64,000 nt of DNA from Planctomycetota bacterium (GTDB lineage: Bacteria > Planctomycetota > Phycisphaerae > UBA1845): NCBI GenBank assembly GCA_030616775.1, contig JAUWWQ010000004.1, positions 1 through 64,000 on the forward strand, given 5' to 3'. Positions 2,393 to 32,778 of the stretch are shown piece after piece (position 1 is the first letter of the stretch; every line of letters begins with the position of its first letter). Made by a program: the position numbers and the translations under genes. The notes beneath the pieces were generated by a model that had not been told where the DNA came from, did no database searches, and was given only the letters and a program-made list of their open reading frames with translations.

Positions 2393-3466
2393 CTATCTCC
2401 GCTCGTCATCCACGAACACATTGATCTCGCGCGGATTGACGAACACTGTCTTGCCCACAACTAACCCCAAGGCCTGGAAGCGTTCATGAGGAAGCTCCAC
2501 GTGGACCGGCTCCCCGGAGTCAGTCGTCAGGTCGATCTTGACTTGCGGACCGGCGGCATTGATGTGACGGACTGTAGCTTTGAACCCCGGCTTTCCGTTG
2601 GCCTGCGTTTCAATGTCAATGTCATAGGGCCGTATCAGCCCCCGAGCCGGCTTCGTGGTCGCGTGGCGTTGACCGGAATATTCGACTTCCAGCGGACCAA
2701 GGAACGCCCTGTCGCCCTCCACCCGCCCGTGGAAAACGTTCACATGGCCCACGAAGTTCATGACAAACTCATTGGCCGGATGATGGAAAACCTCCTCCGG
2801 CGTACCGATTTGCTCGATTCGCCCGGCATTTGTGATCACCACCCGGTCGGCAACTTCCAGCGCCTCTTCCTGGTCATGAGTTACCAGAACACTGGTTACG
2901 TGTAGCTCACTATGCAGGCGGCGAAGCCACCTTCGCAGTTCCTGGCGTGTTTTGGCGTCCAGGGCACCGAACGGTTCGTCCAACAATAACACCTTCGGCT
3001 CAATGGCCAGCGCGCGGGCCAATGCAATACGCTGGCGCTGGCCCCCCGAAAGTTGCGCCGGGTAGCGGTCCGCCAACCAGTCCAGTTGCACGAGCTTGAG
3101 CAGCTCGTGCACCTTCTCACGGATCTGATGTCTGGCAGGCCGCAGCTTCCGAGGGCGTACCTGAAGCCCAAAGGCGATGTTCTTGAAGACCGTCATGTGA
3201 CGGAACAGTGCATAGTGCTGGAATACGAAACCTACACGTCGGGTACCCACGTGCCGGCTGGTCACATCCTCGTCATGCAAAAGAATCTGACCACTTCCTT
3301 GGTCGGGCGCCTCAAGTCCACTGATAATCCGAAGAAGCGTGGTCTTTCCCGACCCGGAAGGTCCCAGCAAGGCAACCAGCTCACCGGTCGCAACGTTGAG
3401 GCTGACATCCTTCAAAGCGGCGAAAGTCCCAAAGTGTTTACTGATATGCTGAACTTCAATGCTCAT
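2393..3466 (-). CDS. cysA: Sulfate/thiosulfate ABC transporter, ATP-binding protein CysA
   Basis: 357 residues, the usual CysA length. It shows Walker [11 protein letters not shown]-loop FVFQHYALF, signature [15 protein letters not shown], Walker [13 protein letters not shown] and the switch His in [13 protein letters not shown]-terminal regulatory TOBE-like region follows ([15 protein letters not shown], later [11 protein letters not shown]), typical of the CysA subgroup. It hydrolyses ATP on the cytoplasmic face to drive sulfate or thiosulfate import through CysT and CysW. It starts 20 bases after cysW on the same strand. Identification rests on the sequence and the complete cys neighbourhood. 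Confidence 0.95.
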
Positions 3467-3486
3467 ACAGACAGCCCCTCCCCCTG

Positions 3487-4389
3487 TTAGCTTACGCGCA
3501 ACTCCTGTTTAAACTTCCACTCGGCGAAGCTCTTCAAAACGAGCGTAATCAAGGCGACCACGGTCAGCAACGAAGCCACGGCGAACGCGCCGACGAAGTT
3601 GTATTCGTTGTAAAGAATCTCGACATGCAAGGGCATGGTGTTGGTCAGCCCTCGAATGTGGCCCGAGATCACCGAGACGGCGCCGAACTCACCCATCGCT
3701 CTCGCATTGCACAAGATCACACCGTAGAGCACCCCCCACTTGATGTTGGGCAGGGTCACTCGAAGAAACGTTTGCCACCCACCGGCTCCAAGCGACAGCG
3801 CCGCCTCCTCTTCTTCGGTACCTTGAGCTTGCATGAGTGGTATCAGTTCCCGGGCGACAAACGGGAACGTGACGAACACCGTGGCCAGCACAATGCCGGG
3901 CACGGCAAAGATGATTTCGATGTTGTGGGCGGACAGCCACGGTCCCAAGTATCCGTGAAGGCCGAAGAGTAGAACGTAAATCATTCCGGAAATCACCGGG
4001 GACACGGCGAAGGGAAGATCGATGAGGGTGATCAGGAGGCTTTTGCCGAGGAACTCGAACTTGGCAATTGCCCAGGAGGCGGCAATGCCGAAGACGAGGT
4101 TCAGGGGCACGGCAATCGCAGCAGTCAGCAGCGTCAAGCGTATGGCGGCCAACGTGTCGGAGTCGCGCAAAGACCTCCAATAGACGCCGACACCGTCTCC
4201 GAAAGCCTGCACAAGTACGGCCGCCAACGGGGCAAGCAGAAACAACCCAATAAAGACCATGGCGATCCCGATAAGCAAGAATCGTACGGCAAACGGCTCC
4301 GTGGTTGCCGCAGTCTTCCGGGCAATGGCGCATCTATGGTTCCAAAAACCGCGTATCTGCACGGCGGGAGCCTCAAGGCTGCATGACAC
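3487..4389 (-). CDS. cysW: Sulfate ABC transporter permease CysW
   Basis: 300 residues with six hydrophobic segments starting near residue 38 ([19 protein letters not shown]). The permease EAA-type loop is present ([20 protein letters not shown]), and [19 protein letters not shown] is characteristic of CysW. It forms the membrane channel with CysT. Its start overlaps the end of cysT by 17 bases, which points to translational coupling. The N-terminal 35 residues are longer than in most homologues, so an internal start is possible. Confidence 0.93.
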
Positions 4390-5218
4390 AATGCCGCTGC
4401 CCGCTCCACCACTGCAGCAGGTTGATTGCGAGCAACAGTATAAACGACATCGAGAGCATCACGACCGCGATGGCCGTAGCGCCTGCATAGTCGAACTGCT
4501 CAAGCTTCATGACTATCAGAAGCGGAACGATTTCCGTCCGCATCGGCATGTTTCCGGAAATGAAAACGATGGACCCGTATTCTCCCAGCGCCCGGGCAAA
4601 GGCTAGTGCAAAACCGGTCATCAGTACCGGCCACAATTCCGGCAGAATCACGCGCCGAACGGTCTGTCCACGCCGTGCTCCGAGACTAGCGGCAGCCTCC
4701 TCGACCTCCGGGTCGAGGTCCTCTAACACGGGCTGCAACGTTCGCACTACAAAGGGCAGCCCGATGAACGTGAGCGCAACCACAACACCCAGCGGAGCAA
4801 ACGCCACCTTGATGTTAAGCGGCTCAAGGTAACGGCCGATCCAGCCAGTCTCGGCGTAGATGGCGGTTAGCGAAATGCCGGCCACTGCCGTCGGCAAAGC
4901 AAAGGGCAGGTCGATGAGGGCATCCACGAGTCGCCGTCCCGGAAAGCGGTAACGTACCAGAACCCATGCTACGGTCGCACCAAACAGCAGGTTGATCGTG
5001 GCTGCAATCAGTGAGGCTCCGAGGCTGAGCCGATATGCCGCCAGTACCCGCATGTCGGTCACGGTCGCCCAAAACTGCCCCCAGGTCAGTTCAGCCGTTC
5101 TTAGAAAGAGGCCCAACAGCGGGATCAGGGCGATCAGGCTCAAGTACACAAGTGTAAAGCCCAGCGCCAGGCCGAAACCGGGTAGAATACTGCGCTGTTT
5201 GAAACAGATCTTCATCAA
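4373..5218 (-). CDS. cysT: Sulfate ABC transporter permease CysT (CysU)
   Basis: 281 residues, standard for the family, with a first membrane helix near residues 14-35 (GLALGFTLVYLSLIALIPLL), family motifs LIDLPFALPTAVAGI and FVVRTLQPVLEDLDPEVEEA, the EAA-type loop and ARALGEYGSIVFISGN. It is the second membrane subunit of the sulfate/thiosulfate importer. It lies between the binding-protein gene (45 bases upstream) and cysW (overlapping). Confidence 0.94.
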   Translation of the reverse strand: MMKICFKQRSILPGFGLALGFTLVYLSLIALIPLLGLFLRTAELTWGQFWATVTDMRVLAAYRLSLGASLIAATINLLFGATVAWVLVRYRFPGRRLVDALIDLPFALPTAVAGISLTAIYAETGWIGRYLEPLNIKVAFAPLGVVVALTFIGLPFVVRTLQPVLEDLDPEVEEAAASLGARRGQTVRRVILPELWPVLMTGFALAFARALGEYGSIVFISGNMPMRTEIVPLLIVMKLEQFDYAGATAIAVVMLSMSFILLLAINLLQWWSGQRHCVMQP

Positions 5219-5263
5219 GGGCCGCCCTGTGCTTTCCTCACCGTACCCCCCGGAACCTGAAGC

Positions 5264-6280
5264 TCACTGACCGGGTCGGTAGATCTGGTCGAATGTCCCC
5301 CCATCGGCAAAATGTGTCTTCTGAGCATGGTCCCAACCGCCGAAGACCTCGTCAATCATCAGTAGATCGATCTTAGGAAACTTGCCGGTGTACTTATCAG
5401 CAACCGCCTTCACGCTAGGGCGATAGTGATACTTGGCAGCGAGCTCTTGGCCTTCCTTCGTATAGAGGTATTGAAGGTAAGCCGTAGCCACCTCCCGTGT
5501 TCCGTGCTTATCCACCACCTTGTCCACCACCGTTACAGGGGGCTCACAGAGAATGCTGAGCGAAGGCACCACCATCTCTACCCTGCCCCTGCCGAGCTTC
5601 TCCATTGCGAGAAATGCTTCGTTTTCCCAGGTGATGAGCACGTCTCCGATGCCGCGCTGAACGAAGGTCGTAGTCGAGCCTCGTGCGCCTGAGTCCAGCA
5701 CCGGTACGTTTTTGTAGAGGTGAGCCACAAATTCCCTGGCCTTGGCTTCGTCACCCTGGTTATGCTTGAGGGCATATCCCCAGGCCGCCAGATAAATCCA
5801 CCTTGCTCCACCAGACGTCTTCGGATTGGGGGTGATCACCGACACACCGGGCTTAATCAGATCGTTCCAATCCCTTATGGCCTTCGGGTTGCCCTTGCGG
5901 ACCAGGAAGACCTGGGTGGACGTATATGGACAGCTATTGTTAGGCAAACGTCTTTGCCAGTCCTTGGCGATCAAGCCTGTGCGTCGGCTGATCTCGTTGA
6001 TGTCGTATGCCAAAGCCAGAGTCACAACATCCGCCTTCAGCCCATCAATGACCGCTCGTGCTTGCTTGCCCGCACCGCCGTGCGATTGCCGGATCATGAC
6101 CGTTTTCCCGGTCTTCACCTTCCAGTGTTGAGCGAACGCCGCGTTGAACTCCTGATAAAGTTCTCGCGTCGGGTCATACGATACGTTCAATAGAATAAGC
6201 TTCTCTTCAGCGCTGGCCTGAGAACCGAGGACCAGCCCGGCGGTTGCGAAGGCAAAGAGCACCCTGGCTTTTGTACACAT
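5264..6280 (-). CDS. sbp: Periplasmic sulfate-binding protein (Sbp/CysP family)
   Basis: 338 residues from the ATG at 6280, chosen because CAGGAG lies about ten bases upstream and the protein then opens with a normal signal peptide ([15 protein letters not shown]...SQASA). An in-frame start at 6337 would put 19 extra residues ahead of it. Mature motifs are typical of Sbp: [58 protein letters not shown] and VTWENEA-like [10 protein letters not shown]. It captures sulfate or thiosulfate for CysTWA. It is first of the transporter genes and lies downstream of a ribbon-helix-helix gene. Confidence 0.94.
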
Positions 6281-21049: not shown

Positions 21050-21324
21050 GGCGTACCTCCGAGCTTGGGAACAGACCGGCCCGCCAGGTCACTCACGGGC
21101 TCGTCAGTCTCGGAAGCGGAGGCCTGCTGCAGGTAGCCCCATGTTTCCAGGGCGTCATGCTTGTCGATCGTGCATATTGAAAACCCGGCGTGCACCAACA
21201 CCCAATCGCCGGGTGCGGCGTCCGGGGTCATGATCTTACTGATCTCCAGGCGGTTGCCATGAAAATCCACGAGGGCTTCATCGCCCCGGCATTCAATGAT
21301 TCTTCCAGGGATTGCTAAACACAT
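21046..21324 (-). CDS. hypC: Hydrogenase maturation chaperone HypC
   Basis: 92 residues. It opens MCLAIPGRI with the essential Cys2, followed by ALVDFHGNRLEI and PGDWVLVHAGFSICTID. It carries iron with HypD and binds the large-subunit precursor. It overlaps hypF by 10 bases and hypD by 4. Confidence 0.97.
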   Translation of the reverse strand: MCLAIPGRIIECRGDEALVDFHGNRLEISKIMTPDAAPGDWVLVHAGFSICTIDKHDALETWGYLQQASASETDEPVSDLAGRSVPKLGGTP

Positions 21325-22517
21325 GACTCCGCCCCCTGATGGATAGCCGCGGCGGCGACGGCCTGCCCGAGTGCCAGGCAGGCGTCACTATACGGGACAC
21401 GGCGCGGGCACAGGATCGTCAGGTGGCGTCGATCAAGAAGTTCGGTCAGGCGCGCTAGAAGACGCCGGTTGTTGAAACAACCTCCGGACAAGGCAACCAC
21501 ATGGAGGCCGCACATCTCGCAGACCTTGACTGCGGTGGCGGCCAGCATTTGGGCGATGGTCTCATGGAATCGTGCCGAAACGTAGCCACTGTCTTTTTGC
21601 TCTCGTTGATCCTTCACGATCGCCCGGATGGTCGGAGCCAGGGACATGTTGACAGAACCCTCCACGGCCACGGCCTCGTACGGATACGCTTCGGTGGTTT
21701 CAGTCGCGGCGGCCGCCTCTAGGGCAATCGCCGCCTGGGCCTCCCGATCGTTCCGATCACACAGACCGAGCAGGAAGCTTACGCCGTCAAACACACGTCC
21801 CAGGCTGGAAGTCATCGGCGCATTCAAGCCGCCCTCGATCATGCGAGCCAATCTGTCCAGGTCTTTGGGACCCACGCGTAGGAACGCGTCGGTAAGGTGG
21901 TGCGTCCAACGGCTGCCAAAGGCCTGTCGCAGCAACGCGGCCGCAGGCCGCCAGTTCTCGATCGCCGCGGCGTCCGCCCCAGGGAGTGGGAAATACTCCA
22001 GGTGTCCCAATCGCTCGAACGAGGCCCTGGAACAGCGCATCACCTCGCAGCCCCAGGCCGCACCGTCCGACCCGTACCCCACGCCGTCGCAACAAATGCC
22101 GATCAGTGGTTCCGTCGCGTCCCAGTCTGCCATTACGCTGACCAAGTGGGCATGATGATGCTGAATCGCCACTGTGGGAACACCCATGGTCAAGGCGCTA
22201 CGCGTGGAGAGATACAGTGGATGAAGGTCGTGGGCGACCAGCACGGGACTGAAGTGGAACTGTTGCCGTAACTGCTCAATCGTGCGCACAAACAGCCGGT
22301 AGGACTGCGGATCGGTCAGGTTACCCAGGGGTTCACTGAGCTTCGCCTCACGGTTGGAATATAGGCAGACGGAAGACTTGAGCTCTCCCCCGACCGCCAG
22401 GATGTTGAGCACGGTCCGTGTGCCCAACCGGTAGGTCGTGTACAGTTGATCTACCGAAGGCCTGCCGGCCACGGCCTTCGCCGAAGCGGGAGGCGTCGGC
22501 TTGCAGGATCCGTGCAT
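21315..22517 (-). CDS. hypF: HypF carbamoyltransferase domain only (N-terminal half missing)
   Basis: 400 residues from the ATG at 22517 (AAGAGG just upstream). It matches the second half of HypF: ILAVGGELKSSVCLYSN, VLVAHDLHPLYLSTRSAL, the metal-binding VAIQHHHAHLVSVMAD, ICCDGVGYGSDGAAWG, PLPGADAAAIENWRPAA and VALSGGCFNNRRLLARL, which is the Kae1-like fold. Full HypF is about 750 residues; the acylphosphatase, zinc-finger and YrdC-like domains are absent, and no frame out to 22900 contains them. Either those parts are encoded elsewhere or the carbamoyl phosphate route is altered. It heads hypFCDE. Confidence 0.88.
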   Translation of the reverse strand: MHGSCKPTPPASAKAVAGRPSVDQLYTTYRLGTRTVLNILAVGGELKSSVCLYSNREAKLSEPLGNLTDPQSYRLFVRTIEQLRQQFHFSPVLVAHDLHPLYLSTRSALTMGVPTVAIQHHHAHLVSVMADWDATEPLIGICCDGVGYGSDGAAWGCEVMRCSRASFERLGHLEYFPLPGADAAAIENWRPAAALLRQAFGSRWTHHLTDAFLRVGPKDLDRLARMIEGGLNAPMTSSLGRVFDGVSFLLGLCDRNDREAQAAIALEAAAATETTEAYPYEAVAVEGSVNMSLAPTIRAIVKDQREQKDSGYVSARFHETIAQMLAATAVKVCEMCGLHVVALSGGCFNNRRLLARLTELLDRRHLTILCPRRVPYSDACLALGQAVAAAAIHQGAESCV

Positions 22518-22835
22518 CGGGGCCTCTTGTCTCGTTTCCACGCTGATCTCCCCATGAATGAATCCTTGCAAACTCAGTGCCAACGGCGGCAAACGTACCC
22601 CGAGGCGGTACACCAGCACTACTGGGCAAGCCTTCGCCTAACGTCTTGCCCGTGCGTAGCTTACGTTCACTTTGCTCCAGGTTCAAGTGGCCTTCGCGGG
22701 CCCCGTTTTTTGCTGGAGGCCCCTTGCGGCAAAATCCGATCATCAGCGCCCCGATCGGCAATCGGCTGGTCTGCAAAGGCGCTCTCCGGGTTCTTCGTAA
22801 GTCGCGTCGAACCTCCACAAACTGATCAGAAAATC

Positions 22836-24308: not shown

Positions 24309-24575
24309 ATGGCGAAGAGACGGCGCGGGGTCGAGCAGATCACCTCGAAGTTACGTCAAGCGGACGTGCCGTTAACCAAAGGTCAGCCGGTCGCAAAGGT
24401 CGTCCGCAGGCCTGGGATCACCAAGCAGACCTACTGCCGGTGGCGGGAGGAGTGCAGCGACCTACGAACGGACCGGGCCGTGCGACTCAGGGAACTGGAG
24501 AAGGAGAACGCCCGCCTCAAAAGGTTGGCGGCGGGATTCTCGCTGGACAATGCGATCCTGGAAGCAGTAACGTAG
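24309..24575 (+). pseudogene. IS3-family OrfA transposase remnant
   Basis: 88 residues. The helix-turn-helix region (VEQITSKLRQADV, GITKQTYCRWREE) and the leucine-zipper-like RLRELEKENARLKRL followed by SLDNAILEAV are typical of OrfA from IS3-type elements. OrfB, the catalytic integrase that normally follows in the overlapping frame, is absent, so the element cannot move on its own. No terminal inverted repeats could be recognised. Confidence 0.75.
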
Positions 24576-25726: not shown

Positions 25727-26524
25727 TTGGCGGACGGGGAAGTGTCTTTCTTTGAAACCATATCCAGGTTGCGGCGAGCAGGAGCAGTCGTGCGGCCGTT
25801 AAGTTCCGGCGCGGCTGGCCGTGAGTGTCGCGGTGCGGAAGGAACTGACGCGCGCCGTGCGGGTCTGCCCTTGCGGATTGTAAAGGCCGGGTTGGTTTGT
25901 CTGTTGCTGGTCGGTAGTGCCGCCCTGCTGTCGATGGAGATCGCTTCCCGGAGCCATCCGTTGCTCGGATGGTTCACTCTCCTTCCTTTGCTGGCGGCGA
26001 TTCGAGTCTTCCCGCCGCGCCGCGCGTTGGCGTGCGGAGCGCTGTGGGGAGGCAGCCTCTTTTTGTTCCTGGCGGCGAGGGTGGACCCGCTTGTCCCGGC
26101 AACGATCCAGTCGTTCGCCCTTCTGAGCGTGGTTCCCGGTCTGTTCGCGCTTCTGGCGGTATGGGTTACCCGCCGGTTCGGATTTAACCCGCTGATTCTG
26201 GGATTCGGGTGGGGCGCTGTCGAGCTTGCCCTCCTGCCTCTTGGCCTGAAGGGTGGCCTTCTTGGGGGAACCTACGGGCATGAGCCCGGGAGTCTCCTGC
26301 ACCTCTTGCAGGGCCTGTTCGGCTATGTGTGCATGGCCGCGTTTATCGTCGCGGTGAACGGGATCGCCCTTGCCCTGCTGAGCCGCGCCTACGTGGGCGG
26401 TTGCGCGGCGCGGCGCTATGTTCACGGATCCGCAAAAACAGAACAACGGTTCTTCCCGCTGGAAGTTCCGATCAACTTGCTCTTCTACAGCAACCCTGCC
26501 CAACCCCGCGCACCTCCGGTTTAG
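25727..26524 (+). CDS. Integral membrane protein resembling the membrane half of apolipoprotein N-acyltransferase
   Basis: 265 residues with about five hydrophobic segments from residue 50 on. HPLLGWFTLLPLLAAIRVF, RALACGALWGGSLFLFLA and the AVELALLPLG/GGLLGGTYGHEPGSLLHL region recall the N-terminal membrane part of Lnt. The nitrilase catalytic domain of Lnt is absent; the frame stops at 26524. The start is uncertain (TTG at 25727). It is the first gene before the sorted protein and exosortase and on the same strand, so a role in that surface-sorting system is possible but inferred. Confidence 0.55.
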   Translation: MADGEVSFFETISRLRRAGAVVRPLSSGAAGRECRGAEGTDARRAGLPLRIVKAGLVCLLLVGSAALLSMEIASRSHPLLGWFTLLPLLAAIRVFPPRRALACGALWGGSLFLFLAARVDPLVPATIQSFALLSVVPGLFALLAVWVTRRFGFNPLILGFGWGAVELALLPLGLKGGLLGGTYGHEPGSLLHLLQGLFGYVCMAAFIVAVNGIALALLSRAYVGGCAARRYVHGSAKTEQRFFPLEVPINLLFYSNPAQPRAPPV

Positions 26525-26695
26525 CCTCTGGGACGCATGTCGCGGGGTCCTTGCGGCCTCTGGACATGCGGAGGTATCGTAAGTAACACGTAAGTTGAAA
26601 AGAGAGGATTGGAAGTTCACTAACAACGTGTCGCTTCGCGCGGAACGAGATCATGGCGCGGAGGAGACGTTTGCAACGAGGAAAGAAGGTTTGAG

Positions 26696-27715
26696 ATGAA
26701 AGTTTGGAAGCTTGTAATTGTTTTACTGGCCGTGGGGATGTTCTCGGTGTCGGCCGTCGCACAGGGATTGACCTGCCCTACGGCCACGGCGGTGGCCGTT
26801 CCCAGCAACACCGCTGGTGATACACTCGCCGGCGGCGGTGGTGGTGGTCCTTTCCGGGACTGCCTTCATGAGTACGGTGGCCCCGGGGGGTGGGCAGTTG
26901 GTGCCCAATGGTACAGCTTTGTCGGAACGGGGAACACGGTCACGGTGAGTCTGTGCGTTACAGAGCTGGTGGACACCGACGCCGCTATGGTGGTCGTCTG
27001 CCAGTCCTGTGCCTGCCCGATGTGCGTCGGCGCGAGTGAAGACTTTTGCGGCGCTTCTGGGTACAATCCCGAGGTAACGTTCTGCACCGCAGCCGGCGAG
27101 ACGTACTGGGTCGGGGTCGGCGACAACTACACCCCGCAGGGCACGTTCACGCTTGACGTGTCGGACGACGCGACAGCCTGCGGCGCTCCGCCGACCTGTT
27201 TTGAAACCTGTGGCAACAACGTCTGGGAAGGATGCGAGGAGTGCGACGGGACCGACAACGGCGCCTGCGAAGTGTCGTGCGAAGGTGATTGCACATGCAC
27301 GCCGGTTGTCTGCGGTAACAACATTGCGTTTGGCGATGAGGAGTGCGACGGGACCGACAACGGCGCCTGCGAAGTGTCGTGCGAAGGTGATTGCACATGC
27401 ACGCCGGTTGTGTGCGGTAACAACATTGTGTTTGGCGATGAGGAGTGCGACGGGACTGATATTGGTGTGTGTGTACCCGGTACTATTTGTGATGGGGATT
27501 GCACCTGCCCGGATCCCATCTGTGACAACAACATCAAAGAAGAGGGCGAGGATTGCGACGGGACGGACGACGACGCGTGTCCGAGCCTGTGCGAAATGCC
27601 GGGTTGCACGTGCCCCGCGGCTCCTGCGCTTCCCATTTGGGGCATAGTCGGGCTGGGTGTGCTCCTGGCGGGTGGCGGTGCGACCGCGGTTGCTCGTCGG
27701 CGCAAAAAAGCCTAG
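26696..27715 (+). CDS. Secreted Cys-rich protein with a C-terminal exosortase-type sorting signal
   Basis: 339 residues. A signal peptide (MKVWKLVIVLLAVGMFSVSA) is followed by a globular region of about 150 residues, then four Cys-rich repeats of about 34 residues (CGNN...ECDGTDNGACEVSCEGDCTC). The C-terminus is a tripartite sorting signal near residues 309-339: ALPIWG, a hydrophobic helix (IVGLGVLLAGGGATAV) and a basic end (ARRRKKA), resembling IPTLxxWG-CTERM tails. It should be exported, held in the membrane and processed by the exosortase encoded 15 bases downstream. GAGGAAAGAAGG precedes the ATG. Confidence 0.85.
   Translation: MKVWKLVIVLLAVGMFSVSAVAQGLTCPTATAVAVPSNTAGDTLAGGGGGGPFRDCLHEYGGPGGWAVGAQWYSFVGTGNTVTVSLCVTELVDTDAAMVVVCQSCACPMCVGASEDFCGASGYNPEVTFCTAAGETYWVGVGDNYTPQGTFTLDVSDDATACGAPPTCFETCGNNVWEGCEECDGTDNGACEVSCEGDCTCTPVVCGNNIAFGDEECDGTDNGACEVSCEGDCTCTPVVCGNNIVFGDEECDGTDIGVCVPGTICDGDCTCPDPICDNNIKEEGEDCDGTDDDACPSLCEMPGCTCPAAPALPIWGIVGLGVLLAGGGATAVARRRKKA
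27236..27439 (+). repeat. Tandem repeat of a 102-base unit inside the sorted-protein gene
   Basis: Two consecutive units of 102 bases (34 codons), beginning near 27236 and 27338. The first roughly 74 bases of each are nearly identical at the DNA level, including synonymous positions. A third, diverged unit begins near 27440. This indicates a recent in-frame duplication. Confidence 0.75.
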
Positions 27716-27730
27716 CGCAGTTGAGGAACT

Positions 27731-28402
27731 GTGGGTCGATCGAAGAATGGTCGTCGTACAAGACAACCTGGTCAGACGGGGCTGCCAAGGTCCCGCTCCC
27801 GGCGTAAGAGCCGGGGGAAAGCACGGTCCGGGGCGGCAGTACGTCTGACCGACAACACTACTGACGACAACACACGGGTCCCCTGGCTTAAGGCCGGGGG
27901 GCCCGTTGTGCGTTTTATCCTTCTGTTCGTCGTTCTGATTGGCGTTTTTTACGCGATTTACATACCCTGGTCCCAAACGGGCGTCTATCATCTATACCTC
28001 AGATCGATTGCCAAAGCCGTCTACGCGGTGCTCCACGTTCTGGGCTTCGACGCAGAGGTCAATGGCGTGTCCGTCATCCTCCCCGACTTTCGCCTAAAGG
28101 TCATCCCCGGGTGCGATGCGATGGAGGCAATCGGGCTGTTCGGATCGGCCGTCCTCGCATTCCCGGCGGCCCGGTGGGCCCGGCTCATATTTGCATGTAT
28201 CGGGACTGCCGGGATCCTTGTCATCAATGTGTTGCGTCTGGGTACCCTGGTGCTGGTGGGCGCCTATTTCCCAGACGCGTTCAAGACCATACACTGGGAT
28301 CTCTGGCCCGCCCTTTTGATCCTCTACGTGCTGGCGTTTTGGGTAGTCTGGATCCGGTGGACATCGCGGCATCGAGGCCTGGCAAGTGATGTTACGCAAT
28401 AA
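27731..28402 (+). CDS. Exosortase family transpeptidase (XrtH-like)
   Basis: 223 residues from the GTG at 27731 (GAGG five bases upstream). The N-terminus is very basic (residues 1-38), then several membrane helices. The exosortase catalytic set is present: Cys128 in VIPGCDAMEAIGLF, Arg169 in INVLRLGTL and His188 in KTIHWD. Exosortases cut and probably transfer proteins bearing CTERM signals. The substrate tail encoded next door (LPIWG) suggests the class acting on IPTLxxWG-type signals, but subclass is an inference. The stop overlaps the next start. Confidence 0.88.
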   Translation: MGRSKNGRRTRQPGQTGLPRSRSRRKSRGKARSGAAVRLTDNTTDDNTRVPWLKAGGPVVRFILLFVVLIGVFYAIYIPWSQTGVYHLYLRSIAKAVYAVLHVLGFDAEVNGVSVILPDFRLKVIPGCDAMEAIGLFGSAVLAFPAARWARLIFACIGTAGILVINVLRLGTLVLVGAYFPDAFKTIHWDLWPALLILYVLAFWVVWIRWTSRHRGLASDVTQ

Positions 28403-28985
28403 GGCGATTGCGGGCTTTGTCCTATGGTTCCTTCTGGTCTACGGTCTGCTCATGGCCCCGTGGCCGGGGCTTCAAAACGCCTACCGCGCGGCGTACCTCG
28501 ACGCCGGGCAATTCGTGTTTCAGACGCTCACGTCGCCCGACACGATCCGCTTCAAGGCGCCGGACGTCGTTGAAGGAGAGGTGGACACGGTTGTTCTTGT
28601 ACGGTATCGGGAAGCCGGGGTTTGGATTACCCTGGGCATCAACAGCAGGCAGGGTGCATATCTTCCTACGGTCGTCCTGGCTTCGTTGATCCTCGCCACC
28701 CCCGTGCCCTGGTCCCGCCGGGGCGTCAGCTTGCTGTTGGGGCTTGTGCTGGTCCACTTGTTTATCGTGGTCAGGCTCACAATCGTGGTGCTCAGTGCGT
28801 ACTTTTTTATGTGGGGACTGAACACCGGGGCCGATGCCTCCCTCTGGACAAAGGTCTTTGTAGCGGGAGTCAAGTTCGCAGCCACCGGGCAGGGTCTCGG
28901 CTATATCGTGCCGATCATAATCTGGGTGCTTGTGGCTATCCCTCGCGAGCAGTTGAACCGCATCCTTTCCGAACGTCGGCGGTGA
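28386..28985 (+). CDS. Exosortase-associated membrane protein
   Basis: 199 residues; translation starts at the GTG at 28386 or ATG at 28389, both inside the end of the exosortase gene. A first helix (AIAGFVLWFLLVYGLLMAPW) precedes an external region of about 60 residues, then three more helices (YLPTVVLASLILAT, GVSLLLGLVLVHLFIVVRLT, IVPIIIWVLVA). The topology and position match the membrane protein often encoded beside XrtH-type exosortases. Overlap with the exosortase gene suggests the two proteins form a complex. Confidence 0.7.
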   Translation: MMLRNKAIAGFVLWFLLVYGLLMAPWPGLQNAYRAAYLDAGQFVFQTLTSPDTIRFKAPDVVEGEVDTVVLVRYREAGVWITLGINSRQGAYLPTVVLASLILATPVPWSRRGVSLLLGLVLVHLFIVVRLTIVVLSAYFFMWGLNTGADASLWTKVFVAGVKFAATGQGLGYIVPIIIWVLVAIPREQLNRILSERRR

Positions 28986-29043: not shown

Positions 29044-29116
29044 GGGGCCGTAGCTCAGATGGGAGAGCGTCCGGTTTGCAACCAGAAGGTTGGCAGTTCG
29101 AGCCCGCTCGACGACT
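29044..29116 (+). tRNA. Degenerate tRNA-Ala(TGC), probably a pseudogene
   Basis: GGGGCCGTAGCTCAGATGGG starts a clear tRNA: the D arm GCTC/GAGC pairs, and the anticodon loop TTTGCAA gives anticodon TGC. But the acceptor stem has three mismatches of seven (29045/29114, 29046/29113, 29048/29111), the anticodon stem one and the T stem one. No CCA is encoded. The 5' three quarters look like a normal tRNA-Ala and the last part has been replaced or eroded. It lies 30 bases before a restriction-modification gene, so it may be an old integration site. Confidence 0.55.
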
Positions 29117-29145
29117 TTGGATGGTTGTTCGTACGGACATGCTCC

Positions 29146-32100
29146 ATGACCACGGAACACGAACTCACCTTCTGTAGCGACGCAGCCGGCTGGATGAACC
29201 AGGAGCTTGAGGTCCGCCCGGATCTAGCCTTCAGCCGCGTCAAGATTGAGCAGTCCGCCAGGGGATCGCGCAAGCGACGCGATCTAACGATTTACGATCG
29301 CTCCGACCAGATCGCCGTTACGGGTGAGGTCAAGTTGCCGTATATGGCTGATGGAGGATCGCCCTACAACGAGTCCGTCGTTGAAGATGCATTCAACAAA
29401 GCCGGGAAAGTCGGCGCCCGCTTTTTCGTCACTTGGAATGTAAATCGGCTGGTTTTGTGGCAAACGGACGATGCCGGAAAGCCACTCCACGAGCGGCACA
29501 TCTACGATGACGCGTTTACCCAAGTTCGCGATGAGGACGACCTTGTCAATCCCGCCGTGCAGCAAACGATTCGTCGTGGCCTCATTCGTTTTCTTGAACG
29601 TGCAAGCCAAGCTTACACCGGTGCGTTGCCGCTGGCGAAGCGGCCGCTCGACGAGTTCTTTATCACCGTCCTGGAAGCGGCGCTTGAGCGCCCGATTGCC
29701 GCAGTTCTGCGCGCAATCACGAAGAAATACGCGCGCGGTGCGACATTCAAAACGCGTTTGAACTCGTGGATGCGCGATGCGCAAGGGTGGCAACTTTCGG
29801 ACGACGAGCTGATCCAACGGGATAATCTGGAGCGGTCCGCCAAGTTCGCATGCTATGTCTTGGTTAACAAGGTCGTGTTCTACAAGGCCCTTCGGAAACG
29901 CTTTACGCGATTGCCTAACATTCGTATACCGGCAAAGATCACGAGCGCGGCAGACGCGGAGGATATGGTCAACGGTTTTTTCCAGAAGGCAATCAAGGCC
30001 ACGCGCGATTACGAAACCGTATTCACAGACGACTTCGGAGACACCCTGCCGTTCCTGCCCGACGACGCCGTTCCGGCGTGGCGCGACCTGCTTCAATCGA
30101 TCGACCGATTCGACTTTACACAGATCAACTACGACGTCATCGGACCCATTTTCGAGCGATTGATAAGCCCTGAGGAACGTCACCGATACGGGCAACATTA
30201 CACCAAGGCGGAAATCGTTGATCTCATCGAGGCATTCTGTATCCGTGACGCCGAAACTACGGTGCTCGACCCGGCCTGCGGCGGCGGAACGTTCCTGGTT
30301 CGGGCGTATAACCGCAAGAGGTTCCTGGCTAAGACTGCCGGCACGGAACTCCCCCACGAAAGGTTGCTCGACCAACTATACGGAATTGATGTTTCCGCGT
30401 ACGCAGCACACTTGACGACGATGAACCTCGCGACCCGCGACTTGATTGATGAACAAAACTATCCACTCGTCGCTCAGGATGACTTTTTCGACGCCGAGCC
30501 GGGCCGGGCGCTTTTTCAGGTTCCGATCGCTCGCGGCGCAGAGTCCAAGCAACTGCGCCCCGTGCTCATCGACCGCGTAGATGCGGTCGTGGGCAATCCG
30601 CCTTACGTTCGACAGGAAGAGATCAGCAAGCCGCCCACCATGTCCGCCAAAGGGCGGGTTAAAATTAAACCCCGCTCGCTGGATCAGATCAAAGCCGAGG
30701 CCCGCAAGTACAAGGACCACCTTTCGTCTTTGGAACAGCGCGCCTGCCCGGACATCAGGTTCTCAGGGCGCAGCGATCTTCACGTCTATTTCTGGGCGCA
30801 TGGTCTGCGATTCCTGAAAGACGGCGGATACTTCGGGTTTCTGACTAGCAGCGGTTGGCTCGATGTTGAGTACGGCTTTCGCCTTCAGGAATTCCTACTG
30901 AAGCACTACGCGATCATCGCCGTCTTTGAGTCGGAGGTGGAGCCCTGGTTTACCGGGGCTCGCATCACAACTTGTGCCACCATCCTGCGACGCGAGTCGG
31001 ATTCGGTAAGACGCGAAAGGAATCTCGTTCGCTTTGTTCGGCTCCAATCGCCGCTTGCCGAGATCTTTCCGGCCGATGCAACCGAGGAGCAACGTCAGCG
31101 GGCGGCGGAAGCGCTGCGCGACCGGATCGAGGCCATCACCAACAATGTGTCGGAGCGTCACTGGCGCGTCCGGGTCATCAGACAGGGCGAACTGTACCGA
31201 TTGGGCTGTCGAGTCAACGGCCGTTCGGCAGATGCTCAGCATGATGATTCAGGAGTCGTCGATTCCGAGCTGTCAGAGATGGGCACTGAGTCGCGGCCAT
31301 ATTTCGGCAGCAAGTGGGGCGTGTACTTGCGAGCTCCGGACTTTTTCTTCGAGCTCCAAGACCGGTTCGGCGCCCGCATGGTCCCGCTTGGGGAAATCGC
31401 AGACGTCCGGTTTGGCGTCAAGACAGGTGCCGATCGCTTATTTTTCGTCCGCGACATCACCGACCGGTGTCTCGCGGAGGTACCGGAAGCGCGTAAGTTT
31501 CGAGCCAAATACGGCATCCAGCGCGTGCAAGCCGACAAGATTCGTATAGTTCGTGCCGGCGACAAAAGTATCCATTTGATCGAAGCCGAGTATCTCGAAC
31601 CCGAGGTCCACAACCTGATGGAAACGAGCGGAGTTTTTGGAATCCGTATCAATCCTGAAGACCTGACGCGACAGATACTTCTGTGCAGCAAACCCAAGTC
31701 CAAACTGAGGCGAACGCGTGTTCTAAAATACATCGAGTGGGGCGAACGAGAAGGATTTCACACCGGGTCCACTTGTGCCGTGCGAGCAAAGTCTCGTCCT
31801 TGGTACGACCTCAATGTAGGGTCACGGGGTGATGTTTTCTGGCCTATGGCCCAACAGTACCGGCATCTGGCACCTCTGAATGAGGGGTCGCTTATCTGCA
31901 ACCACAACCTGTTTGACGTCTTTGCGACTCCTGACACGAAACCCAAGGTCTTATGCGGCATTCTAAACTCGACTGTTGTGGCGATGCACAAGCATTTCTT
32001 CGGTCGGCTGGCGGGAACCGAAGGCAATCTGAAAACGGAAGTTGTTGACGTGACGATGATGCCGGTGCCGGACCCGCGTCATGCGAGCAAGCTAGTCCAA

Positions 32101-32778
32101 CGGCGCATCAGCGACGCCGTGGAAGCGGTGTGTGAACGACAAACGCGAAATCTCCCTGATGAATTCGACCTGGCGGATCGCCAAGCCCTGGACGACGTCG
32201 TGTTGGAGTTGCTTGGCGTGACGGACCAGCAGGTCCGCCGGAATCTGCGCGATCGCCTGTACGCCGAAATGACCAATCTGTATCGCACCATCCGGGAGAA
32301 GGAGCTTCGGGCCATCGAGAACAAAAAGCAGACTAAGCGTGGCAGCAAGCTCTCGCCCGAACAAATGGCTACCGAGCTTTGGAACGATCTCGATCCCGGA
32401 CTCGTGCGGCGCTTGCCGGAAGACTTTTTCGGCAACCCCGAGCCAGTGGAAGAAATCGATCTACCGGAGGGTAAGTGCAAGCTGCTCTCGAGCCCGCTTA
32501 CTGGACAGGCAGGTCTCGACATAGATGGTACGCACATCGAACTTGGCGACGAGCGCCGTGCGGAACTGGCTAAGGCCATTTTCGACAGCGGACGCAGAGG
32601 AACCGTACCGATTCCTATGGACCCCGATTTGTGCGCACAAATATTGACGCGGTATCGAGCCTACCTCGATCAGGTGACAGCGGAATTCAATTATCTCGTG
32701 TCTCAGAAAACCGCCAACGAGAAGATGCAGGCCAAGGTGGTCGGAATACTGAAACACAGACTGGGCCAACGCCCTTGA
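29146..32778 (+). CDS. Type IIG (Eco57I-like) restriction-modification enzyme
   Basis: 1,210 residues from the ATG at 29146; longer in-frame starts lie inside the tRNA-like sequence. The N-terminal nuclease domain shows a PD-(D/E)xK-like core (ITVTGEVKLP-like IAVTGEVKLP, then FFVTWNVNRLVLWQTDD). The N6-adenine methyltransferase has VLDPACGGGTFLVRAY and the catalytic VVGNPPYVRQEEI. A TaqI/Eco57I-type target-recognition region follows, including HLAPLNEGSLICNHNLF and LCGILNSTVVAMHKHF. One chain would both modify and cut DNA. No separate specificity or restriction gene adjoins it. It stands alone between a tRNA remnant and secreted-protein genes. Confidence 0.88.
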   Translation: MTTEHELTFCSDAAGWMNQELEVRPDLAFSRVKIEQSARGSRKRRDLTIYDRSDQIAVTGEVKLPYMADGGSPYNESVVEDAFNKAGKVGARFFVTWNVNRLVLWQTDDAGKPLHERHIYDDAFTQVRDEDDLVNPAVQQTIRRGLIRFLERASQAYTGALPLAKRPLDEFFITVLEAALERPIAAVLRAITKKYARGATFKTRLNSWMRDAQGWQLSDDELIQRDNLERSAKFACYVLVNKVVFYKALRKRFTRLPNIRIPAKITSAADAEDMVNGFFQKAIKATRDYETVFTDDFGDTLPFLPDDAVPAWRDLLQSIDRFDFTQINYDVIGPIFERLISPEERHRYGQHYTKAEIVDLIEAFCIRDAETTVLDPACGGGTFLVRAYNRKRFLAKTAGTELPHERLLDQLYGIDVSAYAAHLTTMNLATRDLIDEQNYPLVAQDDFFDAEPGRALFQVPIARGAESKQLRPVLIDRVDAVVGNPPYVRQEEISKPPTMSAKGRVKIKPRSLDQIKAEARKYKDHLSSLEQRACPDIRFSGRSDLHVYFWAHGLRFLKDGGYFGFLTSSGWLDVEYGFRLQEFLLKHYAIIAVFESEVEPWFTGARITTCATILRRESDSVRRERNLVRFVRLQSPLAEIFPADATEEQRQRAAEALRDRIEAITNNVSERHWRVRVIRQGELYRLGCRVNGRSADAQHDDSGVVDSELSEMGTESRPYFGSKWGVYLRAPDFFFELQDRFGARMVPLGEIADVRFGVKTGADRLFFVRDITDRCLAEVPEARKFRAKYGIQRVQADKIRIVRAGDKSIHLIEAEYLEPEVHNLMETSGVFGIRINPEDLTRQILLCSKPKSKLRRTRVLKYIEWGEREGFHTGSTCAVRAKSRPWYDLNVGSRGDVFWPMAQQYRHLAPLNEGSLICNHNLFDVFATPDTKPKVLCGILNSTVVAMHKHFFGRLAGTEGNLKTEVVDVTMMPVPDPRHASKLVQRRISDAVEAVCERQTRNLPDEFDLADRQALDDVVLELLGVTDQQVRRNLRDRLYAEMTNLYRTIREKELRAIENKKQTKRGSKLSPEQMATELWNDLDPGLVRRLPEDFFGNPEPVEEIDLPEGKCKLLSSPLTGQAGLDIDGTHIELGDERRAELAKAIFDSGRRGTVPIPMDPDLCAQILTRYRAYLDQVTAEFNYLVSQKTANEKMQAKVVGILKHRLGQRP

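Follow-up and report, generated by a model that had tools for sequence, protein, structure and literature searches.

The stretch analysed here, referred to as the window, comprises positions 1 to 64,000 (64,000 nucleotides) of contig JAUWWQ010000004.1 from a bacterium of the Planctomycetota (assembly GCA_030616775.1), and its positions 25,727 to 28,985 raise the question of whether one exosortase, one secreted substrate and a protein resembling the apolipoprotein N-acyltransferase Lnt can make up a protein-sorting system of their own. Exosortases are widespread, but little is known of how they work, which proteins they associate with and which acceptors they use. An initial annotation, made from the window alone, had proposed a self-contained system with a single dedicated substrate and an acyltransferase-like partner that might modify this substrate during sorting. 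The reading preferred here, to which a probability of about 0.68 is assigned, is that the locus is an XrtH-type cassette, one of five parallel cassettes in the same genome, with a two-subunit exosortase, a dedicated sorting tail and an accessory protein of LNT_N type that is coupled to the substrate.

The gene order initially described was confirmed by the positions of the four open reading frames (ORFs), which encode the LNT_N-like membrane protein, the secreted substrate, the XrtH-like exosortase and a second membrane protein, here called the partner. The substrate and exosortase genes are separated by 15 bases, and the exosortase and partner genes overlap by 17 bases. The exosortase is a member of the exosortase/archaeosortase superfamily, with 32.8 bits on PF09721 (cut-off 25.7) and 41.5 on TIGR04178 (cut-off 23). 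It was compared with the enzymes of 85 loci from its own genome and relatives, known from metagenome-assembled genomes (MAGs), which were chosen by exosortase likeness alone, lower-scoring exosortase matches being left out. All 85 enzymes match the XrtH model and keep the catalytic Cys, Arg and His (C128, R169 and H188 in the window enzyme). The catalytic His is followed by W-Q in 81 of them and by W-P in the window enzyme and in that of locus L084; the only other W-P exosortase (L092) belongs to a different clade and has no adjacent tail. A sequence search found no solved exosortase structure, and a fold search of the PDB with the exosortase and partner models gave nothing significant.

The partner gene adjoins the exosortase gene in 85 of the 85 loci, and also in all 80 loci of a second set, whose genomes are named; some two dozen of these lie outside Planctomycetota, among them loci from MAGs of Bacteroidales, Saprospiraceae, Ignavibacteria and Cloacimonetes; both sets overlap largely in Planctomycetota and their counts are not additive. 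A tandem of two exosortase-partner pairs was observed at L100 (G040:C129, positions 3243-5558). When the partner and exosortase profiles were aligned with hhalign, a probability of 97.2% and an E-value of 3.5e-11 were obtained, compared with 0.012 for the reversed profile, 0.1 or worse for twenty column shuffles and 0.47 for the unrelated LNT_N profile, and the XrtH and XrtX models were also matched by single partner sequences. In this alignment Gln89 of the partner falls on the catalytic Cys128, and none of 79 partners has a Cys at that column. In the monomer models from AlphaFold2, whose mean pLDDT is 93.5 (partner) and 84.9 (exosortase), both proteins have the same order of elements, namely two helices, three strands, a helix, a long helix and C-terminal helices. 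On these alignments, the partner is best described as an exosortase homologue that has lost the catalytic Cys. Alternatively, it could be a membrane chaperone or transporter with a role of its own, resembling exosortases only in the way that membrane proteins in general resemble one another; the low pairwise likeness, the lack of a Pfam family match and the fact that the catalytic residues are not retained as a set would fit this explanation, but it is quite unlikely given a profile E-value of 3.5e-11 against 0.01-0.7 for the reversed, shuffled and unrelated-membrane-protein controls, and a predicted topology that is alike down to the three-strand insert. The occurrence of a putative pseudo-exosortase at every XrtH-type locus examined, in several phyla, suggests that the whole subfamily works as a heteromer.

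The NCBI family 'exosortase H-associated membrane protein' (NF041730, XrtH_assoc) is matched weakly by 10 of the 79 partners (best 1.6e-6), and among 60 relatives it gave four matches, none at the cut-off of 35 bits (best 30.1). The window partner itself gave no match to NF041730 and is not assigned to it; it is a distant relative only. A kinship of NF041730 with exosortases was not found stated in the open-licence papers searched, and the same literature gave no useful match for IPTL-CTERM with exosortase, for exosortase H/XrtH, or for a pseudoenzyme or inactive paralogue.

The cassette is not alone in its genome (4.45 Mb, 97.8% complete). Five XrtH-like exosortases are recognised in it: C75, which is the window enzyme, C31, C53, C20 and C35. 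All five have a homologous partner gene directly downstream, and on the same strand each is preceded by a gene that encodes a tail. Two to five such exosortases are often found in relatives from the same family. The loci with named genomes assign the group to class Phycisphaerae within Planctomycetota. In the exosortase tree (n=85) no two of the five paralogues share a clade, and all five clades include relatives from other genomes; the paralogues are therefore old lineages and not recent copies. As this genome has four further paralogous loci and no fewer than 21 additional IPTL-type tails, the idea of a lone, self-contained system is not supported.

The substrate ends in the tail APALPIWGIVGLGVLLAGGGATAVARRRKKA, in which APALPIWG is followed by a helix and by RRRKK. 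This tail only narrowly passes the NCBIfam IPTL_CTERM model (TIGR04174, cut-off 20.5) by 0.1 bit, with 20.6 (24.1 in the genome search), and has no match to PF18203 (cut-off 20.8). The profile search agrees with the initial annotation that no other such tail exists in the 64-kb window. Throughout the genome, the same kind of search counted 22 tails above the IPTL_CTERM cut-off, one of them that of the window; the remaining tails listed follow the pattern [IVL]P[TA][LVM]-S/T-x-W-G or a near variant of it (SEWG-type). The expectation that the tail has no counterpart elsewhere thus holds for the LPIWG class, which is single in the genome, and fails for IPTL-type tails as a whole, at least 21 of which belong to the SEWG class. 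The one counterpart, in a relative, is VPTLPQAG at L084, whose exosortase is sister to C75 (support 100/99). When a profile of both tails was searched in 51 genomes, only these two had E-values below 1e-14, and the next matches were SEWG-type at 6e-8 or worse; both top matches are members of the profile, so that the informative point is the absence of a third. A second private class, IPV[ML]S[NG]RG, which has no Trp and is unique in both genomes, accompanies the exosortase clade L091/L123. The adjacent substrates at L091 and L123 are giant, with open frames of about 3500 codons.

A case in which tail and protein body are decoupled was found at L151 and L318-L320. These loci hold the closest relatives of the LNT_N-like protein of the window and relatives of the substrate ectodomain, with SEWG tails, and their exosortases are remote from that of the window (C75 ranks 82nd of 85 for those at L318-L320, and that of L151 is in another clade). 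The tail therefore follows the exosortase and not the protein body, which argues for specificity. This bears on an explanation in which every IPTL-type tail, LPIWG among them, would be processed by each of the five exosortases, the genes being adjacent as a leftover of cassette transfer and the LP motif having arisen by neutral drift. Such a shared pool would account for the window tail still passing IPTL_CTERM with P, W, G and the helix retained, and for more than 20 orphan tails that need some exosortase. However, every LP tail in the 51 genomes lies next to an exosortase of the C75/L084 clade, and the ectodomain relatives of the substrate keep SEWG tails beside other exosortases, so that a pool extending to the window tail is considered improbable. 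The proposal of one enzyme for one substrate is best kept as a tail class that tracks its own exosortase clade; taken literally it does not survive the five loci and 22 tails.

The remaining member of the cassette, the LNT_N-like protein, matches LNT_N (PF20154) with 16.2 bits, below the cut-off of 27.1 and weak by itself, but 37 of 52 family members match this domain at 0.01 or better (best 1.5e-11), which assigns the family to LNT_N. The TTG start codon at 25727 is uncertain, and the conserved part begins near residue 52. The C-terminal R-[A/G]-P-P is invariant across the 52 members, and R-A-P-P is conserved as protein and not as DNA, because the third codon positions vary freely in relatives. 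The conserved 3' end of the LNT_N-like gene, together with an inverted repeat seen by eye, had raised the suspicion of an RNA element in the gap before the substrate gene; this was rejected on account of these free third positions and an Rfam search that gave nothing there. The possibility that this protein is a further exosortase homologue was also ruled out with hhalign (0.47).

The LNT_N-like protein tracks substrate genes, not exosortases. It was found at only 19 of the 85 exosortase loci, and of 53 evaluable copies, some close to exosortases and others distant from them, 49 lie immediately before a tail-bearing gene, compared with 10 of 439 other long control ORFs from the same loci. The four exceptions comprise two copies that run off the contig and two whose next gene encodes a protein with a variant tail (VPALTGPG and VPAMSTEG). 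The substrates that follow these genes differ widely in their ectodomains, several of which show no detectable similarity to one another, and the tail is therefore their shared feature. The link with the locus that had been assumed for the Lnt-like gene is thus a link with tail-bearing substrates and not with the exosortase.

The acylation of the substrate during sorting, as first suggested, would draw on this tight linkage and on the weak LNT_N/lnt profile matches. The catalytic Glu-Lys-Cys of Lnt is carried by its CN_hydrolase (nitrilase) domain. This domain is absent in 52 of 52 relatives, which have the membrane domain only and in this respect fall outside Lnt, and the signal peptides of the substrates examined by eye mostly end in AxA-like sites without a lipobox, making an acyltransferase role very unlikely. 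A different role has been considered that is compatible with the preferred cassette model and would add to it: the protein could supply or position a phospholipid that becomes the C-terminal anchor of the substrate. Lnt membrane domains hold phospholipid, and the linkage of LNT_N genes to substrates in 49 of 53 cases would agree with such a function. In addition, a lipid-anchoring precedent exists for the archaeosortase ArtA: in haloarchaea, archaeosortase substrates become lipid-anchored, and homologues of phosphatidylserine synthase and decarboxylase are needed (PMC7157517). On the other hand, most IPTL-type proteins have no adjoining LNT_N gene (two full copies for about 30 tails in this genome), and the phospholipid-handling role, drawn by analogy, is a guess of rather low probability. 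The open-licence papers searched gave no useful match linking Lnt with exosortase.

Several observations weigh against the two-subunit cassette with a dedicated tail. The best subfamily of the window enzyme is XrtH (TIGR04177), on which it scores 72 bits with a cut-off of 86, and it is filed as XrtH-like, not XrtH; its paralogue C31 scores 90.6 on the same model. Only 60 of 79 partner sequences retain the Arg (R130) that aligns with exosortase Arg169. A tail gene is adjacent at only about 36 of the 85 exosortase loci, so that a neighbouring substrate is not a rule, and the LP class is known from two loci only (C75 and L084). In favour of the dedicated tail, distances between exosortases and those between their adjacent tails are correlated (Mantel r 0.42, P 0.0005, n=36; r stays at 0.42 without four divergent tails), but shared inheritance of neighbouring genes contributes to this value and is not removed by the test.

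Considering both sides, the cassette is proposed to work as follows. After export by Sec, the substrate would be retained in the inner membrane through its C-terminal helix. The catalytic subunit (Cys128/Arg169/His188) would recognise the tail, cleave at or near P-A-L-P-I-W-G and transfer the protein to an acceptor. The Cys-less partner, as second subunit, would complete or position the tail or the acceptor site. Because both the tail and the exosortase of the window cassette have diverged, the neighbouring substrate is most likely the only one that this cassette serves, and the other four exosortases would share the pool of SEWG-type tails. The LNT_N protein is most likely an accessory that escorts its substrate or handles the surrounding lipid, with no acyltransferase activity. 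A bolder generalisation, held only tentatively and regarded as unlikely in its full form, would be that XrtH-type exosortases are obligate pairs of an active enzyme and a dead homologue, several per cell with separate tail codes, and that an LNT_N-only family with R-[AG]-P-P loads or positions phospholipid for chosen substrates. That two exosortase clades have tail codes of their own, next to clades with a shared pool, offers a natural test of tag reading, and the substrate-linked LNT_N family offers a handle on the acceptor or modification step.

Table 1. Features of the exosortase cassette in the window
Feature	Position	Strand	Basis
LNT_N-like membrane protein, 265 aa from TTG, ends ...QPRAPPV	25727..26524	+	profile matches, relatives
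Codons for C-terminal R-A-P-P of the LNT_N-like protein, residues 261-264	26507..26518	+	
Secreted substrate, 339 aa: signal peptide, N-terminal domain, Cys-rich CGNN..ECDGTD repeats, C-terminal sorting tail	26696..27715	+	
C-terminal sorting tail of the substrate, class P-x-L-P-x-x-G, CTCPAAPALPIWGIVGLGVLLAGGGATAVARRRKKA	27605..27712	+	
102-bp tandem repeat, 2.2 copies, 98% matches, encodes the Cys-rich spacer of the substrate	27236..27456	+	
XrtH-like exosortase, 223 aa; Cys128 (28112-28114), Arg169 (28235-28237), His188 (28292-28294)	27731..28402	+	
Cys-less exosortase homologue (putative pseudo-exosortase partner), 199 aa; Gln89 opposite exosortase Cys128	28386..28985	+	

The coordinates of these features are collected in Table 1. 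The tandem repeat in the substrate gene is a recent expansion of its Cys-rich spacer. A short HTH_Tnp_1 transposase ORF (24309-24575, plus strand), IS3-type OrfA by its look and apparently a remnant, lies about 1.1 kb before the LNT_N-like gene and is a possible trace of cassette mobility. Directly 3' of the partner gene, Rfam gave a tRNA match of 36 bits (29044-29116, plus strand) with no ARAGORN call, perhaps a degenerate tRNA, and a restriction-modification protein of Eco57I/N6-methylase type (1239 aa, 29059-32778, plus strand) adjoins the locus. Further away, a HypF (434 aa, 21315-22619, minus strand), part of a row that also includes HypC- and HypD-like ORFs, has C-terminal Kae1-like domains only and seems to lack its N-terminal half.

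Among known systems, Exosortase H/IPTL-CTERM (TIGR04177/TIGR04174, PF18203) shares with the window locus the XrtH model match and catalytic Cys/Arg/His found in all 85 enzymes, and a tail with P-x-[LV]...W-G, a helix and a basic end; it differs in that the window enzyme falls below the XrtH cut-off and has W-P instead of W-Q after the catalytic His, that the tail has no S-E and reads L-P-I-W-G, and that five parallel paralogues occur per genome here. NF041730 is likewise a membrane protein linked by name to XrtH, but leaves the window partner unmatched and its relatives below cut-off. Lnt (TIGR00546, PF20154) resembles the LNT_N-like protein in the membrane domain, whereas the latter has no nitrilase domain, ends in the invariant R-[AG]-P-P and has its gene tied to tail-bearing substrates. 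PEP-CTERM/exosortase A (EpsH) systems belong to the exosortase family too, and have Sec-exported substrates with motif-helix-basic tails and one enzyme for many substrates (PMC3237569, PMC12188702); for cyanoexosortase B, it is thought that substrate tails are cut and possibly joined to polysaccharide (PMC12188702). In contrast, the window locus has another tail motif, a small exosortase and a separate Cys-less partner, and no exopolysaccharide genes were recognised adjoining it. Rhombosortase/GlyGly-CTERM and dedicated sortase pairs are alike in having a single substrate and adjacent substrate and enzyme genes (PMC3237569), but their enzymes are unrelated, and the window pair coexists with a putative shared-pool system of the same enzyme family.

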